A stretch of 64,000 nucleotides of DNA, taken from the NCBI RefSeq assembly GCF_029626175.1, contig NZ_JARUBM010000002.1:1364001-1428000 (forward strand), read 5' to 3'. The notes under the pieces are model-generated. The model ran no database searches, was not told the DNA's origin, and saw nothing but the letters and a program-made list of their open reading frames with translations. Made by a program: the position numbers and the translations under genes. This DNA is from Micromonospora sp. WMMD1082 (GTDB lineage Bacteria > Actinomycetota > Actinomycetes > Mycobacteriales > Micromonosporaceae). Every line of letters starts with the position of its first letter. The first letter of the stretch is position 1. This document shows positions 15,967 through 32,956 of this stretch, piece by piece.

Positions 15967-16385
15967 GGCAGTAACACCTCCACAAAAAGGGGTCGACAAA
16001 TAGCGATTCCGCGCGCGTGGTGCGCTTCTGTTTGGCGGTTTCGCCCGGGGCGTTTTTGTTGCCCACGTCCATGGACGCTCGATGCCCGATGGTTGTCAAC
16101 CCCGTTGCGCAAGACTCTTTACACGGGCCGCGCCGCACCCCTTTCCGTTCTCGATTCAGGGGGCTGCCACCGCCGCCCGGAACGCCATTTGAACGGTCTT
16201 ATCCCGACGCTGTGACACGTTCGGCGCCCTCCCCTGGTTGCTGCCAGGGTTGCCGGTGCTGGGTCCGCTCGCACCGTTTGGCGGGGTCGCGGTTTCGGGC
16301 GGAAACGGCAACGGCGGGCGTCCGGCGGGCCGGACGGGCGGCGCTCACCGCGCCCGTAGGGTCCTTCTCGGATTGTGCCGAAAAT
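15967..16385. other. Structured noncoding region, candidate transfer origin or promoter
   Basis: No gene is supported in these 419 bases. The region has lower GC patches and several inverted repeats: CGTCCGGC/GCCGGACG with a two-base loop (16319-16336), CCCTGG/CCAGGG (16232-16249), and repeated GTTTGGCGG/GGTTTCG patches near 16030-16050 and 16275-16300. Before the transposon insertion at 16391 it extended directly to the end of the wall-hydrolase gene at 17514. Its place inside the transfer module makes an origin of transfer possible, but nothing proves it. Confidence 0.35.
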
Positions 16386-16390
16386 CACTT

Positions 16391-16415
16391 TGTAGGTTCC
16401 CGTCAGAAATGTCGG
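16391..16415 (+). repeat. Left terminal inverted repeat
   Basis: A 25-base end reading TGTAGGTTC-N9-ATGTCGG, preceded by the CACTT target duplication. It matches the right end at 18 of 25 positions, all concentrated in the outer 9 and inner 7 bases. Two direct copies of TCTCATCRATYTGTCG follow inside at 16451-16466 and 16476-16491, 25 bp apart. Confidence 0.72.
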
Positions 16416-16634
16416 AGCCGATGCTGTTGACCTGGCGTGAGTTCGGGCTCTCTCATCGATTTGTCGGCGGATTCTTCTCATCAATCTGTCGTTTTCTTGA
16501 TGATCTCGTTGGTAGGCGAGTCCAGTGCCCGAGTTGGTGAGGCGGGAGAAGGCGCGGTTGTGGGTCGCTGGCAGCACGTGGTGACTGGATCTTGACTCGG
16601 CGGTTTTGTCGTACCCGGCTCCTACGATGTGCCG

Positions 16635-17384
16635 ATGACACGATTCGTGCAGCAGCCCGACTACGAGGGTGCAGAGTTCATCGACTTGTCAATGGCCAGC
16701 GCGACCTTCCGCGAGGTGGATCTCAGCGGCGCCCGGATGCGTGGCGTGCTGCTGTTCAACGCCGACATCGACGGGGCGATCGACGGGCTGCGCATCAATG
16801 GCGTGGAGGTCATGCCGTTGATTGAGGCCGAGTTGGATCGCTTGCACCCCGAACGGCTGCGACTGCAGCCGGCCACACCCGAGACGATGCGCGACGCGGT
16901 GGATGTCATCGAGGAGCTTTGGCAAGCGACCGTCCGACGCGCGAGCGCGTTGCCGGAGGAAGCCGCCTACAGATCAGTGAACGACGAATGGTCCCTCGCC
17001 CAAACCCTGCGCCACACGATCTTCGTCCTGGACGCCTGGTACGGCCATGCGGCGGCCCTTCGGCCGAACCCGTTCCATCCGATCGGCGTGCCCGCATCGT
17101 TCACCACCAACGGCGCCGAGTTCGGCATCGACGAGTCGGCCGCGCCGACCCTCAGCGAGATCCTCGCCGTGCGCGCCGAACGGATCGCCGATCTGCGCGC
17201 GTATCTGGCAGAGGTCACACAGGAGGAGCTGGACCGGGTGCGGGGGCCGAACACCGCGCTCGGCTGCCCGCCGCCAGGTGAACGCACTGCGGCTAAATGC
17301 CTGCAAGTCATCTTCAACGACCAGTGGGCGCACGTGCAGTTCGCCAACCGCGACCTGGCCAACCTGGAACAGGAGTATGCGTGA
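16635..17384 (+). CDS. DinB family protein with N-terminal pentapeptide repeats
   Basis: A 249-residue two-part protein. Residues about 10-60 are pentapeptide repeats (AEFIDLSMASATFREVDLSG). Residues about 85-245 form a DinB-like four-helix bundle with candidate metal-binding histidines in LRHTIFVLDAWYGH and QWAHVQFA. DinB proteins are small metal-dependent enzymes, many acting as thiol (bacillithiol/mycothiol-type) transferases; the substrate here is unknown. The ATG at 16635 is chosen over a GTG two codons earlier. It is the only gene inside the mini-transposon, and its base composition is less GC-rich than the flanking transfer genes. Confidence 0.85.
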   Translation: MTRFVQQPDYEGAEFIDLSMASATFREVDLSGARMRGVLLFNADIDGAIDGLRINGVEVMPLIEAELDRLHPERLRLQPATPETMRDAVDVIEELWQATVRRASALPEEAAYRSVNDEWSLAQTLRHTIFVLDAWYGHAAALRPNPFHPIGVPASFTTNGAEFGIDESAAPTLSEILAVRAERIADLRAYLAEVTQEELDRVRGPNTALGCPPPGERTAAKCLQVIFNDQWAHVQFANRDLANLEQEYA

Positions 17385-17476
17385 TGTTACCTTCAGACCG
17401 AAAACCTCAACGCCACACCGAGCGCTTCTCAGAACCCTGTCGGAACCGACATCCGCACCGACACAGTTCTGAGAAA

Positions 17477-17501
17477 CCGACATCGCCATTGCGAACCTAC
17501 A
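17477..17501 (-). repeat. Right terminal inverted repeat
   Basis: Read on the minus strand, this end is TGTAGGTTC-N9-ATGTCGG and is followed outward by CACTT. Just inside it, TCTCAGAAC (17427-17435) and GTTCTGAGA (17466-17474) form an inverted repeat around further CCGACA sites. This could be both a terminator for the DinB-like gene and part of the transposase-binding end. Confidence 0.72.
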
Positions 17502-17513
17502 CACTTCACGGAT

Positions 17514-18588
17514 TTACAGGGTCACGCCTTTTTGCCGCATGAATGGAATCGGGTCAACGGCATTGTGTTCGGTGGCGGGATAGCCTTCGTGGATCTCGTA
17601 ATGCAGATGTGGTCCGGAGGAGTTTCCGGAGCTGCCGACGTGGCCGATCGGCTGCCCTACGATCACCGTCTGCCCTACCTGCACGATGGGCTGTCGGACC
17701 AGGTGGCAGTAGCGCGACACGATGCCGTCTGCGTGGTGGATGTCGGTGTACCAGCCGCACCCGCCGAGGCCGGGGTAGCCGTCACGGTCGCAGGGCATCG
17801 GCCCGCCGGTGGGTTCCCACGAGTCGCGGCCGATGTTGCACCGCACGCGCACCACGACGCCGCCGGACGCGGCCCGGACGACGGTCCCCTTCGGCGCTGC
17901 GATGTCGATCCCGTCGTGGTCGGGCCGGCCGGCCGCTGGTGCGGAAGCCGGACCCGGCCGTACCCGCCACCGGGCGGGTCCACCCGGCGGCACTGACCGG
18001 CCCACTGCCGCACCCGGGCAGCGTCCCGCCGCTGTAGGCGGCGACGATCTCGGTTGCCCGCGTCTCGTGCCGGGCGTAGGCGTCCGGGTACGCCGACCGT
18101 TGCACCGTCTGGGCGGCCTGGGTGAGCGGTAGCCGTTCCCACCCGGGCACCCGCAGCAACGCCTCGTAGAACTTTCCGGCGGCGTATTCGGGTTTCGTGA
18201 TCTGGTGCGGGGTGCCCCATCCCTGCGACGGTCGTTGTTGGAACAGCCCCAACGAGTCATGATCATTCGCGTCACCGAGGTGCCCGTGGTTGATCAACGA
18301 GGACTCCTGGAGCGCGGTGGCAACGGCGATCACCCACCCGCGCACCGGCACCCCCATCCGATCACCTACAGCCATGATCACCGAAGCGTTACGGGTCTGC
18401 TCCGCCGACAACCCCGCCGGAGCTGCCCCCGGCACCGTCACCGCCCCGATGCAGCTACCCCCACCCCCGCCGCCTCCGAGCAGCGACGAGACGACCCCGG
18501 TTGACGAGACGATTCCGGCGGTGGCGGAGGTGAGCAGCAGCAGCGCCACGGCGGCCCCGACCGCGACCCACAGCGCTACCCGTCCCAC
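17514..18588 (-). CDS. Lytic transglycosylase/M23 peptidase of the transfer system, frameshifted
   Basis: Wall-opening enzyme, VirB1-like role. After a GTG at 18588 come a membrane anchor (VALWVAVGAAVALLLLTSA) and a lysozyme-like domain with LQESSL and GLFQQRPSQGWGTP. The C-terminal M23 metallopeptidase domain has HDGID, HADG and GPHLHYE. The two parts lie in different frames. The break is at the tandem (GGCC)3 at 17923-17934; removing one GGCC restores a smooth join, SGRPDHDG. This is either a natural slippage mutation, a phase-variable tract or a sequencing error. The gene overlaps the upstream replication-relaxation gene by 13 bases. If the frameshift is real, the product is a secreted transglycosylase without the peptidase. 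Confidence 0.82.
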
Positions 18589-19484
18589 GACGTGCCGCCC
18601 CCGGTCGGCGCGGGCAGGTGGGCCAGGCGTACCCGGTCGTGGTGCCCGACGATGCGCCAGACCGGCCCCGCCGGGCCGGGCGCGGCGGCGTGTTCCCTGG
18701 TCGCGGTGGCCACGGTCAGCCCGTCCGGCAGCCCGGCCCGGTGGAGGTGGGTGTGCAGGTTGGCCTCCCGGGCGGCGGTGGGTAGCCAGAACAGCACCGG
18801 GTACGCGCGGCGGGGCGGTAGCGCGGCGTAGCCGGTCAGCTTGCCCACGACGCGCGGCAGGGTTTCGGTGCCGAGGTCTGCCTCGACCCAGAACGGCACC
18901 GCCCGCCCACCACCGGCCCGCGTGTCGTCGGACCAGACGCCGTGCCCATCCGGGCGGACCAGGGTGCCGCACGCCTCGCGGCAGCGTGCCTCGTTCCACC
19001 ACCGCACCAGCCGCGCCCCGGGGTGCGCGCGGGCATGAGCGGTGAGCGCGACGAAGAACCCGTTCACCGTGAGCAGGTGCGCCAGGGTCGGGGACATGGC
19101 AAGACGCGCAGTAGCGTCGCGCACCGCCGCCGGGCGGGGTAGCGCCTCGTCGCGTCCGGCCGCGAGCAGGGCCGCGCCGACCGGGCCGAGGGTCCAGCGC
19201 CAGGCTTGCGAGCCGGGGCGTTGGTAGTGGCGGAATCGGTCGAGGATGCCTCGATCGTGGAGGGTGTTGAGGCGGTTGCGGGCACGGCCGACGGAGCCGA
19301 AGGCGAGGTCGACGAGTTGGTCGGTGGTGAACGTGCGGTGTTGGTCGAGCAGGTTGAGCAGGTGCCGGTCTCGGGGGGTGAGCCGGCCGAGTTCGGCGGC
19401 CACGACCGACGACGTCAGGCGGGAGCTGCCGGTGGCAGATGTGTGGGTAGGAGGGATATCTCTTATCAGTCGGTTCCGGTCCAC
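18576..19484 (-). CDS. Replication-relaxation family protein
   Basis: A 302-residue member of the replication-relaxation (Replic_Relax) family, linked to plasmids and integrated elements. The N-terminal winged-helix region has LTPRDRHLLNLLDQHRTFTT and GRARNRLNTLHDRGILDRFR. A second half then matches the family layout (HLLTVNGFFVAL, WWNEARCRE). The start GTG at 19484 has AGGAGG five bases upstream and lies inside the end of the ATPase gene, so the two are coupled. No classical relaxase is seen in the window, which makes this protein the nearest candidate for DNA processing or its control; that role is inference. Confidence 0.85.
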   Translation of the reverse strand: MDRNRLIRDIPPTHTSATGSSRLTSSVVAAELGRLTPRDRHLLNLLDQHRTFTTDQLVDLAFGSVGRARNRLNTLHDRGILDRFRHYQRPGSQAWRWTLGPVGAALLAAGRDEALPRPAAVRDATARLAMSPTLAHLLTVNGFFVALTAHARAHPGARLVRWWNEARCREACGTLVRPDGHGVWSDDTRAGGGRAVPFWVEADLGTETLPRVVGKLTGYAALPPRRAYPVLFWLPTAAREANLHTHLHRAGLPDGLTVATATREHAAAPGPAGPVWRIVGHHDRVRLAHLPAPTGGGTSWDG

Positions 19485-29274: not shown

Positions 29275-32200
29275 TCATCTAGACCGCGTCATCTCGATCC
29301 TCTTGATCGCCTGCATCGCCACCTGCCGCACATCCGCGTGATCGTCGCTGGTGGCCCGTTCCCGCAGCCACGGCAAGGCGTCCGGGGCGTCGGCGAACCA
29401 TGCCGCGACCGCCCACACCGCCGCCTGCCGCACATGCTCGTCGTCGTCGGTGGTGGCCCGTTCCCGCAGCCACGGCAGGGCGTCCGGGTTGTCGGCGAAT
29501 CTCGCCGCGACCGCCCGCATCGCCTCATATTGCACGGTCCACGAGTCGTCGGTGGTGGCCCGTTCCCCCAGCCACGGCAGAGTGTCCGGGTCGTCGGCGA
29601 ACCCCGCCGCGACCGCCCGCACCGCTGCGTGCCGCACATGCTCGTTGTCGTCGGTGGTGGCCCGTTCCCGCAGCCACGGCAGGGCGTCCGGGGCGTCGGC
29701 GGACCTAGCCGCGACCGCCCGCACCGCCGCGTGCCGCACATCCGCGTTGTCGTCGGTGGTGGCCCGTTCCCGCAGCCACGGCAGGGCGTCCGGGGCGTCG
29801 GCGGACCTCGCCGCGACCGCCCGCACCGCCTCATATCGCACGGCCCACGAGTCGTCGGCCGTGGCCCGATCCCGCAGCCACGGCAGAGTGCCCGGGTTAT
29901 CGGCGAACGTCGCCGCGACCGCTCCCACCGCCCCCCGCCGCACATCCTCGTCGTCGTCAATGGTGGCCCGTTCCCGCAGCCACGGCAGGGCGTCCGGGTT
30001 ATCGGCGAACCTCGCCGCGACCGCCCGCACCGCATCACATCGCACGGCCCACGAGTCGTCGGCCGTGGCCCGATCCCGCAGCCACGGCAGAGTGCCCGGG
30101 TTATCGGCGAACCTCGCCGCGACCGCCCGCATCGCCGCCTGCCGCACATCCTCGTCGTCGTCGGTGGTGGCCCGTTCCCGCAGCCACGGCAGAGTGCCCG
30201 GGTTATCGGCGAACCTCGCCGCGACCGCCCGCATCGCCGCCTGCCGCACATCCTCGTCGTCGTCGGTGGTGGCCCGTTCCCGCAGCCACGGCAGAGTGCC
30301 CGGGTTATCGGCGAACCTCGCCGCGACCGCCCGCATCGCCGCCTGCCGCACAGTCGCGTGATCGTCGGTGGTGGCCCGATCCCGCAGCCACGGCAGAGTG
30401 CCCGGGTTATCGGCGAACCTCGCCGCGACCGCCCGCACCGCCGCCTCGCGGGTAGGCCAGTGTGGGTCGGTGGCGTCGTGGCGGAGGGTGCTCGGGTCGG
30501 GGTTGGTGAGCGCGTTGCGGATGTCCGCGGCCGTCCGGGCGGCGGTGTACGAAGCAAGTCCGGCGAGTTGGTGGGCGTTGAGGCGGTACCAGTCCTGGTA
30601 GATGCCGGCGGCAGGCCAGGTGGGGACGAAGAGGGCTGTCAGGTGGGGTGTGAGCCGTTCGACGGCGTCGGGCAGAGCGCGGTCGTAGCGGTCTTCGCGG
30701 GTGGCGGTTTCGGTCAGCAGTGTGGTGAGGGCGCGGGTCAGAGCCGGAGCGTGAGGAGCCAGGGTGGTGGTCTTGCGGATCTCGGTGGCGGCTTGCAGGG
30801 CGAGGATCAGGTGCCGGGGGACGCCTGGCCAAAGCCGCCAGCGGGGATCGGCGTCCAGCAGGGCGGTGATGGCTTGGGCGGCGAGCCGGTCGGGGATCAT
30901 CCCGGTGAGCAGGAGCAGGACCTCGGTCCAGGCCGGGTCGGCCCACCGCCGGGCGTAGATGTCCAGGAGATCTTCTTGGCGGAGGTCGAGGTTGGTCAGG
31001 CGCCGCGTCAGATCGTCGGCGGCCAGGTACTCCAGGAACGCCCGGTGGACGAACCCGTACACCTCGGAGCCGAAACGGGCCAGGATGAAGTTGCGTTCCC
31101 GGAACTGGACGAGCATGGCTCTTGCAGCGCGGATCGCCCGGTCGGCGGCCAAGTTAAACCGTTCCTGCAGGTAACCGCGGAATTGGTCGGTCAGGTCAGG
31201 GCCGGGGATGTGGTTGCCGGCCAGCCCGGCCGGGGCATGCTGCATGTGCCGGGCGACCAGGTGCAGCAGTTCGAGCTTGTCCTGGGCGTCGAGGTAGTCG
31301 ATGGTGATCCGCTCGTCGCGCAGGTGCTTGTTCACGTCCCAGTGCTCGATGAGCACCGTGACCGCGTGTTCGTACACGCTGCGCCGGTCGCGGGGCAATT
31401 CCCGGCGCCGGCCGATGATCGCGAGGATGGTCAGCAGCATCGGGTTGCCGGCCAGCTCCGCCACCGCGGTCGAGGCGTCGACTGCGGCCAGGAGCCGGTC
31501 ACGCAGCCGCCGGGCCTGGCCAGGGTCGTCGGGGCATGATCTGGTGTACCAGCCGGTGGTGAAAGCCCGGACCTGGCCGGGGTCGAGGTCCTGCAGCATC
31601 CAGTGGCCGAACCCGGCCGCGTCAAACAGCTGCCGCTGGTAGCCGATCACCCGGGACGTGACCACCACCTGCGTCCGGGGATAGCGGGCGGCGAAGCCTT
31701 CGATCTGCGCAGCGATCTCCGCCCGCAGGCGCGGCTCGAACACCTCGTCCAGTCCATCGAACACCACAAGTGCCGCGCCACCACCGCCCAAGAACGGCTC
31801 CAGAACACTGCGGGCCAGCCCCACATCTTGCGTGGTGTGCAAATGATCGATCAAATCCAGAAACGTCACGCTCCGCCCACCACGCCATTCCGGATCGGCG
31901 TACACACGCAGCTCCACCAGCAGCGGCAGCACCCCGGACAACCGCCCCGGTGCCAGCCCAGCCGGGCCGGACGCCGCAGATGGATCCATCGCCCCGCCGT
32001 CGGCCAGGCCGCCCCCGCCGGGGACGAGGTCACCCCGGCCATCGTCGTCAGGTTCGCCGGCGCTGCCGGCATCGCGCCCGGCCAGGGTCAGCATCAGGTA
32101 TCGGGCCAGGGTGGACTTCCCGGCTCCCGGATCACCCAGCAGGACCAGCTTCCGTCCCGCAGGGTCGGCGAGTACCTCCAGCACAGGCCGGGCGGGCCGG

Positions 32201-32817
32201 TCGTGGTAGGCGCGCAGCGCCGTCTCCAGACTTTCCCGGTCGACCTGCTCGGGCAGGTGAAACTCACCGTCGTCGTACCCGGCCCGAGCCAGCCGCTGCC
32301 ACACCTCCCGCGGCACCTCCACCGGGGGCGGATTCGCCCGCACATGCTGAGCAACGAAGACCTGCTCCAGCAGCATCACTGGATGGGTGCCCTGATCAGT
32401 CAGCGGCGTCAGAATCTCCAGATCCACCTGCCGGTAACGGTCCCGGATCCGCGACAGATACCGCTCCCGGGCAGCCACGAACGCGGCCCGCGCGGCTTCG
32501 CCGCTGTCCACGGCCCTGCCGATGCAAGGGTATGTCGCGTCGAACCTCTGCCGCCAAACCGCAAGATCCGTCATCGTGGCAGGCAACGACAGCTCACGAT
32601 GCTGCGCATACCTGATGCAGGCGTCGACGAAGGCGTGAACGGTCGCCCACCGCAGGCCACCGCTGCCGGGCAGGACGCTGGCCAGAGTTGACTCGCCCAC
32701 ACCATGCCCGGCACGGTCACTGTGCGCCTTCAAGCTGGTCTTCGTTGGGCGTCCGGCCAGGTCGTGAAGCTCACGCAACTGCCGGCGCAGATTCCCGCCC
32801 AGCTCCTGATCCGTCAT
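29275..32817 (-). CDS. NACHT STAND NTPase with HTH-like N-terminus and HEAT repeats
   Basis: A 1,180-residue STAND protein. The N-terminus has a helical HTH-like domain common in actinobacterial STAND proteins (STLASVLPGSGG, VHAFVDACIRYA). The NACHT domain has Walker A VLLGDPGAGKSTLARYL (about residues 225-241), Walker B ALVVFDGLDEVFE (about 350), sensor QVVVTSRVIGYQ and a winged-helix part with GNPMLLTILAIIGRRRELPR. Eleven near-identical 34-residue HEAT repeats plus a partial one close the protein. Bacterial NACHT proteins of this layout include anti-phage sensors. No separate effector domain is obvious. The ATG at 32817 follows GGAGG at seven bases. A small membrane protein is encoded divergently. 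Confidence 0.9.
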   Translation of the reverse strand: MTDQELGGNLRRQLRELHDLAGRPTKTSLKAHSDRAGHGVGESTLASVLPGSGGLRWATVHAFVDACIRYAQHRELSLPATMTDLAVWRQRFDATYPCIGRAVDSGEAARAAFVAARERYLSRIRDRYRQVDLEILTPLTDQGTHPVMLLEQVFVAQHVRANPPPVEVPREVWQRLARAGYDDGEFHLPEQVDRESLETALRAYHDRPARPVLEVLADPAGRKLVLLGDPGAGKSTLARYLMLTLAGRDAGSAGEPDDDGRGDLVPGGGGLADGGAMDPSAASGPAGLAPGRLSGVLPLLVELRVYADPEWRGGRSVTFLDLIDHLHTTQDVGLARSVLEPFLGGGGAALVVFDGLDEVFEPRLRAEIAAQIEGFAARYPRTQVVVTSRVIGYQRQLFDAAGFGHWMLQDLDPGQVRAFTTGWYTRSCPDDPGQARRLRDRLLAAVDASTAVAELAGNPMLLTILAIIGRRRELPRDRRSVYEHAVTVLIEHWDVNKHLRDERITIDYLDAQDKLELLHLVARHMQHAPAGLAGNHIPGPDLTDQFRGYLQERFNLAADRAIRAARAMLVQFRERNFILARFGSEVYGFVHRAFLEYLAADDLTRRLTNLDLRQEDLLDIYARRWADPAWTEVLLLLTGMIPDRLAAQAITALLDADPRWRLWPGVPRHLILALQAATEIRKTTTLAPHAPALTRALTTLLTETATREDRYDRALPDAVERLTPHLTALFVPTWPAAGIYQDWYRLNAHQLAGLASYTAARTAADIRNALTNPDPSTLRHDATDPHWPTREAAVRAVAARFADNPGTLPWLRDRATTDDHATVRQAAMRAVAARFADNPGTLPWLRERATTDDDEDVRQAAMRAVAARFADNPGTLPWLRERATTDDDEDVRQAAMRAVAARFADNPGTLPWLRDRATADDSWAVRCDAVRAVAARFADNPDALPWLRERATIDDDEDVRRGAVGAVAATFADNPGTLPWLRDRATADDSWAVRYEAVRAVAARSADAPDALPWLRERATTDDNADVRHAAVRAVAARSADAPDALPWLRERATTDDNEHVRHAAVRAVAAGFADDPDTLPWLGERATTDDSWTVQYEAMRAVAARFADNPDALPWLRERATTDDDEHVRQAAVWAVAAWFADAPDALPWLRERATSDDHADVRQVAMQAIKRIEMTRSR
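29332..30453 (-). repeat. Tandem 102-bp repeats encoding HEAT units
   Basis: Eleven in-frame 102-bp units encode 34-residue HEAT repeats of the pattern VRxAAxRAVAARFADNP followed by LPWLRERAT. Units 2 and 3 (in protein order) are identical in protein and appear identical in DNA; others differ at the tip residues between D-D and V-R. This points to recent duplication or gene conversion, and the copy number may vary among strains. Confidence 0.85.
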
Positions 32818-32956
32818 ACCGTGCCTCCAAGCAGGACCATGACACGCGACACCGGCGCAGCCGTCTGAAATCTGAATGATCCGAGACCAGACCGGCCCAG
32901 ACACCACGCCGATCAACCTCAATCACATCCAGTTCCCTGCCGTTAGGAGCGTCGTG

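Follow-up and report, generated by a model that had tools for sequence, protein, structure and literature searches.

A probable mini-Tn7-like element, lacking transposition genes, behind a hydrolase gene of a Micromonospora conjugative element

The unit, its host element and its empty site

We analysed a 64,000-nucleotide stretch of the Micromonospora sp. WMMD1082 genome, referred to here as the window. It carries a conjugative element with Replic_Relax, TraG/VirB4-like ATPase and PrgI genes and an integrase gene adjoining tRNA-Ala; a TrbL match in the same element is sub-threshold. Near these genes, positions 29275-32922 of the reverse strand encode a HEAT-repeat protein of 1215 aa. Its NACHT match stays below threshold, and it is a possible defence protein. 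The 3' part of a conjugation cell-wall hydrolase gene, identified by its Pfam Peptidase_M23 match, occupies 17514-18275, also on the reverse strand. Across 17514-19000 (-), the N-terminal and M23 parts of this hydrolase lie in different frames, and in the related locus L105 they share one frame. The window gene appears frameshifted relative to L105, through either sequencing error or real decay.

Behind the hydrolase gene lies a mini-element of 1111 bp (16391-17501) with inverted TGTAGGTTC...ATGTCGG ends. It is flanked by a perfect 5-bp target duplication, CACTT, at 16386-16390 on the left and 17502-17506 on the right; in related loci without the insertion, this sequence occurs once. The left (L) end, 16391-16586 on the forward strand, opens with the TGTAGGTTC terminus, followed further in by TGTCG(G) at 16410, 16462 and 16487 as subterminal sites. 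The right (R) end, 17387-17501 on the reverse strand, reads TGTAGGTTC...TGTCGGTTTCTCA...TGTCGG...TGTCGGTTCCGACA inwards from 17501. Each end thus has internal TGTCG(G) sites. The terminal 25-nt inverted pair (16391-16415 and 17477-17501) is the longest reported for 16200-17700; it is 72% complementary over 25 nt and its outer TGTAGGTTC is perfect. Between the ends we recognised one gene, at 16635-17384 (+), which encodes a 249-aa protein with a DinB_2 domain (PF12867, E 9e-17, residues 93-235). The inverted ends, the CACTT duplication, the internal TGTCG sites and a DinB-like gene as the sole passenger had all been proposed in an earlier note on this DNA, and each is confirmed here. A PDB search with the cargo protein returned repeat-protein matches to residues 11-58 and nothing else. 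Its DinB_2 family prompts the guess that it may act as a thiol-dependent S-transferase. The whole unit is present once in its own genome.

Related loci without the insertion provided a direct view of the site before integration. Looking for related conjugative elements with the M23 side of the junction as query, we fetched 20 loci and tested 14 of them (L105-L118), leaving out the window itself (L104) and five loci that match the gene interior alone (L119-L123). In all 14, the alignment runs straight through the joined window flanks with no insert, and the insertion is therefore not a product of chance. In 12 of the 14, CACTTCAC occurs once at the junction, and two (L116 and L117) read AAAATCACTTCACGG, matching letter for letter the empty site that the earlier note had predicted.

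Tn7 has TGT ends, a 5-bp duplication and a set orientation. The window unit has the same duplication length, and its TGT...ACA ends with multiple, apparently TnsB-type, subterminal repeats are likewise Tn7-like. Searching the unit by tblastn gave no tns match, so that it lacks the TnsA and TnsB by which a Tn7-like transposon is recognised and constitutes a non-autonomous derivative rather than a complete member of the group. Anatomically, the case for a mini-Tn7-like element attached behind a hydrolase gene of a conjugative element is solid.

Relatives with and without transposition genes

The end plan of the window unit is also used by elements that encode TnsA, TnsB, TnsC and a large TniQ/TnsD protein. 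Two of these are complete. The Micromonospora element L184 (genome G050) spans 6591 bp at an M23 site with a CGCCC duplication and encodes TnsA (288 aa), TnsB (658 aa), TnsC (365 aa) and TniQ (849 aa). The Acrocarpospora element L144 spans 7426 bp at an NlpC site with a CCGTT duplication and encodes TnsA (NF033179, E 8e-65), TnsB, TnsC (TniB/AAA) and a TniQ of 1006 aa. Two others, L042 and L153, are cut by contig ends and keep tnsA-B-C and part of tniQ. In these autonomous relatives the first gene inside the R end encodes a TnsA-like endonuclease (NF033179; tblastn). PF08722 matches their TnsA weakly; for TnsA and for the rve region of TnsB, Pfam matches fall below curated cut-offs, and Mu-transpos_C exceeds its cut-off for L184 only. 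In L016/L047, the stretch immediately internal to the R end also matches the TnsA_like_Actin model (NF033179; E 9e-26, 91 bits), as a fragment below the curated cut-off of 110 bits. These relatives supply the full-length, TnsB-encoding elements that had been called for, and they bear out the view of the window unit as passenger-only with TnsB-type ends. The earlier assignment to a Tn7/Tn5053-like (TnsB/TniA) group holds for its TnsB part; because the relatives combine TnsA with TnsB, they are Tn7-like and not of the Tn5053/TniA type.

Comparison of 21 R ends revealed a largely shared arrangement, TGTAGGTTCTCA-N7-TG.CG..TTCTCA followed by further TG.CG sites, with the largest departures in L047 and L050. 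The L ends follow a second plan, common to the window and its relatives, that includes a TGACC block and TCTCATCGAT-TGTCG repeats; the exceptions are L144, which has TGTAGCGTC, and L050, which has an internal loss. Among the autonomous elements, we found none with the internal R repeats of the window, which read TGTCGG at every site: repeats are TGTCAC-type in L184 and TGACGC/TGTCG-type in L042, and the L end of L144 carries TGTAGCGTC.

Most delimited members of the family resemble the window unit in showing no TnsB. Both ends could be located for ten elements, nine with exact 5-bp duplications (the window, L051, L044, L047, L092, L050, L144, L184 and L220) and one, L046, with a single mismatch. 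Only L144 and L184 gave a TnsB match; the other eight did not. As the earlier note had anticipated, the same end plan encloses other cargos: an EryCIII-like glycosyltransferase (L092), a phosphoribosyltransferase (L044, together with a further ORF that we take to be transposase-like) and, as read from translations, ABC-transporter-like (L047) and response-regulator-like (L220) regions. L050 is a 217-bp form with no cargo. We did not accept partner ends for L098 and L085, where the duplications were mismatched, or for L185, L186 and L041, where the candidates were unlike the L plan. When we examined 29 R ends for tns genes, 1 kb or more of internal sequence was available for 25, and four of these 25 carried tnsA, tnsB and tnsC. 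R ends with no located partner may be solo remnants. Elsewhere on its chromosome, the window's own genome contains a second family R end (G000:C2:3505652; L218:7653 +), 9 bp behind an NlpC/P60 gene, for which we found no partner with the same duplication in the examined stretch and no tns match in 10 kb.

Units of this kind could arise in place, if an autonomous Tn7-like element inserted, lost its tns genes and left a small remnant that never moved. Such deletions do occur in the family: in L047 (9393-10062) and L044 (11021-11279) the start of TnsA runs directly into the end of TniQ, as left by internal deletions of the tns core, and pieces of TnsA persist in L092 and L220. For the window unit, a second copy largely refutes this account. 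Among 160 genus genomes, one other, that of Micromonospora endolithica (G035), has a full-length copy, with the same ends, cargo and boundaries. This copy is 1138 bp long, is flanked by a separate duplication (ATCAG) and follows an NlpC/P60 gene, whereas the window copy lies behind an M23 gene. Aligned positions are identical at 172 of 194 in the L end, 716 of 800 in the cargo block and 98 of 115 in the R end, or 85-89% by segment. The shared layout at another gene, with another duplication, indicates that the dinB unit moved as a unit. The deleted form must already have been the moving form, unless two deletions shared endpoints, and we consider decay in place very unlikely. Searches returned no empty form of the M. 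endolithica site, which could not be shown because its left flank is not conserved.

If the unit moves in trans, its helper appears to reside elsewhere today, as far as these searches reach. At E 0.001, TnsA matched in 33 and TnsB in 31 of the 160 genus genomes, with no match to either in the window's genome or in M. endolithica; the TnsB profile consists of three rows and could miss distant forms. We used this alignment in place of PF00665 (rve), which had no match in the window's genome, because PF00665 matches the family's TnsB weakly.

The cargo has a history of its own. Copies in other genomes share a homologous block corresponding to 16587-17386, and dN/dS in four pairs of copies is 0.13-0.24, so the gene product is apparently used and the gene apparently under purifying selection. 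Nine further genus genomes (L003-L011) carry the dinB gene at 90-92% identity, adjoining an 18-bp terminal sequence, CTAGATCGTTGACCGGTA, which, allowing up to 3 mismatches, flanks the gene on both sides in six of the nine and on at least one side in all nine. These copies sit in an unrelated IS-like unit, ruling out an ordinary chromosomal gene. In L003 this unit includes what we take to be a transposase-like tail, for which a Pfam search gave no match. In a midpoint-rooted tree of 13 rows (L011 omitted), the window gene branches before the M. endolithica and IS-borne copies (support 93/86, not starred), an order that, on thin data, would fit movement of dinB from the Tn7-like unit into the IS-like unit.

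Attachment genes and insertion distance

The ends recur well beyond the window, as the earlier note had asked. End patterns matched 9 genomes in the genus set of 160 and 12 in the class set of 394, against no match for a reversed control pattern in either set. Matches also occur in 22 stretches of the genome_contigs collection; a strict end pattern had none in the viral_contigs collection. R ends were collected irrespective of their flanks, except that L184 was found via TnsB. They lie behind an NlpC/P60 or M23 gene in 10 of 12 examined cases from the genus set, behind NlpC/P60, M23 or dnaB in 15 of 22 from genome_contigs (six of the 22 already in the genus set), and behind NlpC/P60, M23, dnaB or rsmB in 10 of 15 class matches (five of the 15 being earlier places). 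Merging by hand left 39 distinct R ends (12 + 16 + 1 + 10), which are places and not independent events: L204 and L206 are alike, as are L041, L043 and L095, and these insertions are therefore probably inherited or near copies. Just 3' of an attachment gene are 29 of the 39 (NlpC/P60 14, M23 9, dnaB 5, rsmB 1), and in all nine elements with exact duplications the R end faces the gene. Such placement is not random, and oriented insertion at a fixed attachment site is a Tn7-like trait.

Attachment domains were confirmed by Pfam for the window (M23), L051 and L217 (NlpC), L153 and L082 (DnaB) and L213 (RsmB/F), and the remaining genes were assigned by reading C-termini. In L213, a gene for an rsmB-like rRNA methyltransferase (Methyltr_RsmB-F, NusB) ends 11 bp before the R end, making rsmB a possible further attachment gene. 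Ten R ends adjoin no recognised attachment gene (L045, L049, L083, L087, L090, L097, L102, L205, L212 and L215); four of them (L049, L083, L090 and L212) stand next to a remnant or to the end of another element. Two family ends, or an end and a remnant, lie side by side at L049:9975-9983, L083, L090/L211 and L212, which suggests repeated insertion at one site.

The earlier note had placed the window insertion in noncoding DNA of a transfer module. Its setting in a conjugative element stands, but the position is not arbitrary: the junction falls 12 bp past the M23 stop codon and 54 bp beyond the point where the DPIPFM codons begin. Across M23 insertions, the junction lies 51-57 bp beyond the DPxPFM codons (n=9, sd 1.9). 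Measured from the stop codon, the values spread over -5 to 12 (n=8, sd 5.2); L184, the ninth case, shows no stop codon within the translated stretch. For NlpC/P60, the AP(H/Q/K)(S/T)G codons lie 94-100 bp from the junction in eight of nine cases (sd 2.0), and the ninth, L046, has an APRSG variant at 97 bp by hand count; stop-codon distances are 1-19 (sd 6.3). At dnaB, the KHRNGP codons lie 91-94 from the junction (n=4, sd 1.1) and the stop codon 10-12 (sd 1.0), so this gene does not separate the two references because the stop predicts the junction equally well. These motifs were chosen after viewing the sequences, and the sole fresh set is the six copies from the class scan, which gave 92-96 for NlpC (n=5, wider pattern; stop distances 5-9) and 94 for dnaB (n=1). 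In L184 and L050, the junction precedes any stop codon of the hydrolase gene. For M23 and NlpC, the junction is nearly fixed relative to a coding motif rather than to the stop codon.

This pattern bears on whether selection, and not a target selector, created the preference. Insertion just behind a gene does little damage, so 3' ends could simply be safe places, and the genes include dnaB, which is essential. Against such filtering, the same few gene families recur, the distance follows a coding motif in the M23 and NlpC cases, and the L184 and L050 junctions come before any hydrolase stop codon; we regard it as highly improbable. Mobilisation of a Tn5053/Tn402 (TniABQR) type element by TniA without TnsA is hardly credible: TG.CG-rich ends and 5-bp duplications are found in that group too, but the autonomous relatives here carry TnsA, with none showing a transposase in its absence, and the insertions lie at gene 3' ends.

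We conclude that the window unit is very probably a mini-Tn7-like element of natural origin, which TnsABC would mobilise in trans together with a TnsD homing to conjugation-hydrolase genes. The L end, dinB-type cargo and R end would form the mobile unit. Judging from the anatomy of the ends, TnsB from an autonomous relative would bind the repeated TG.CG sites on both sides, and TnsA and TnsB would cut the unit out. Binding of a large TniQ/TnsD protein to coding sequence at the 3' end of the hydrolase gene would recruit TnsC, which would direct insertion at a fixed distance downstream, with the R end towards the gene and a 5-bp duplication. More broadly, and with moderate confidence, we propose that actinobacterial TniQ/TnsD selectors home to the 3' ends of conjugative hydrolase genes (M23, NlpC/P60), and that transposase-less units carrying dinB, a glycosyltransferase, a phosphoribosyltransferase, a regulator or no cargo parasitise this route.

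Relation to known systems

Laboratory mini-Tn7 vectors carry a cargo between two ends, with TnsABCD supplied in trans. The window unit shares this layout but is natural and belongs to a non-model clade. Tn402-type class 1 integrons, tni-defective elements and MITEs also have ends without a transposase and use a helper in trans, as the window unit presumably does; they differ in their dependence on TniA or other transposase types. Matched ends, a duplication, no transposase and a related autonomous element are all traits that the unit shares with MITEs and mini-transposons. A review of MITEs names Tn7 for its target site and in references only (PMC10969869).

At glmS (attTn7), TnsD recognises the 3' coding part of the gene and insertion occurs just downstream (PMC2918618). 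The window's family is similar in inserting just 3' of a conserved gene and in having autonomous relatives with TnsA, TnsB, TnsC and a TniQ-domain protein, but its attachment genes are NlpC/P60, M23, dnaB and rsmB genes rather than glmS, and the window unit has no tns genes. The autonomous relatives probably belong to an Actinobacteria-dominated TnsB clade of Tn7-like elements that Benler et al. 2021 describe as experimentally uncharacterised (PMC8649781). Because that survey starts from TnsB and another Tn7 gene, a transposase-less unit cannot be its starting point. Its main text contains none of the words peptidase, NlpC and dnaB, and that of PMC10293859 contains neither dnaB nor peptidase. 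In the open literature, with most subscription papers, preprints and supplements lying outside it, we found neither transposase-less Tn7-like units nor these attachment genes. The suggestion of an undescribed family therefore stands in part: Tn7-like elements of Actinobacteria have been surveyed (PMC8649781), and it is the transposase-less forms and the attachment genes that we did not find in print.

Surveys of Tn7-like cargo that begin with TnsB do not start from ends-only units, and eight of the ten elements delimited here show no TnsB. L184 and L144 offer compact (6.6-7.4 kb) systems for protein-guided targeting in an experimentally uncharacterised clade. Since the attachment genes include a conjugation hydrolase, the units should travel with their host element. 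If our reading is correct, they would reach vehicles of transfer by a sequence-specific route; in Tn7, access to such vehicles is ascribed to TnsE (PMC10293859).
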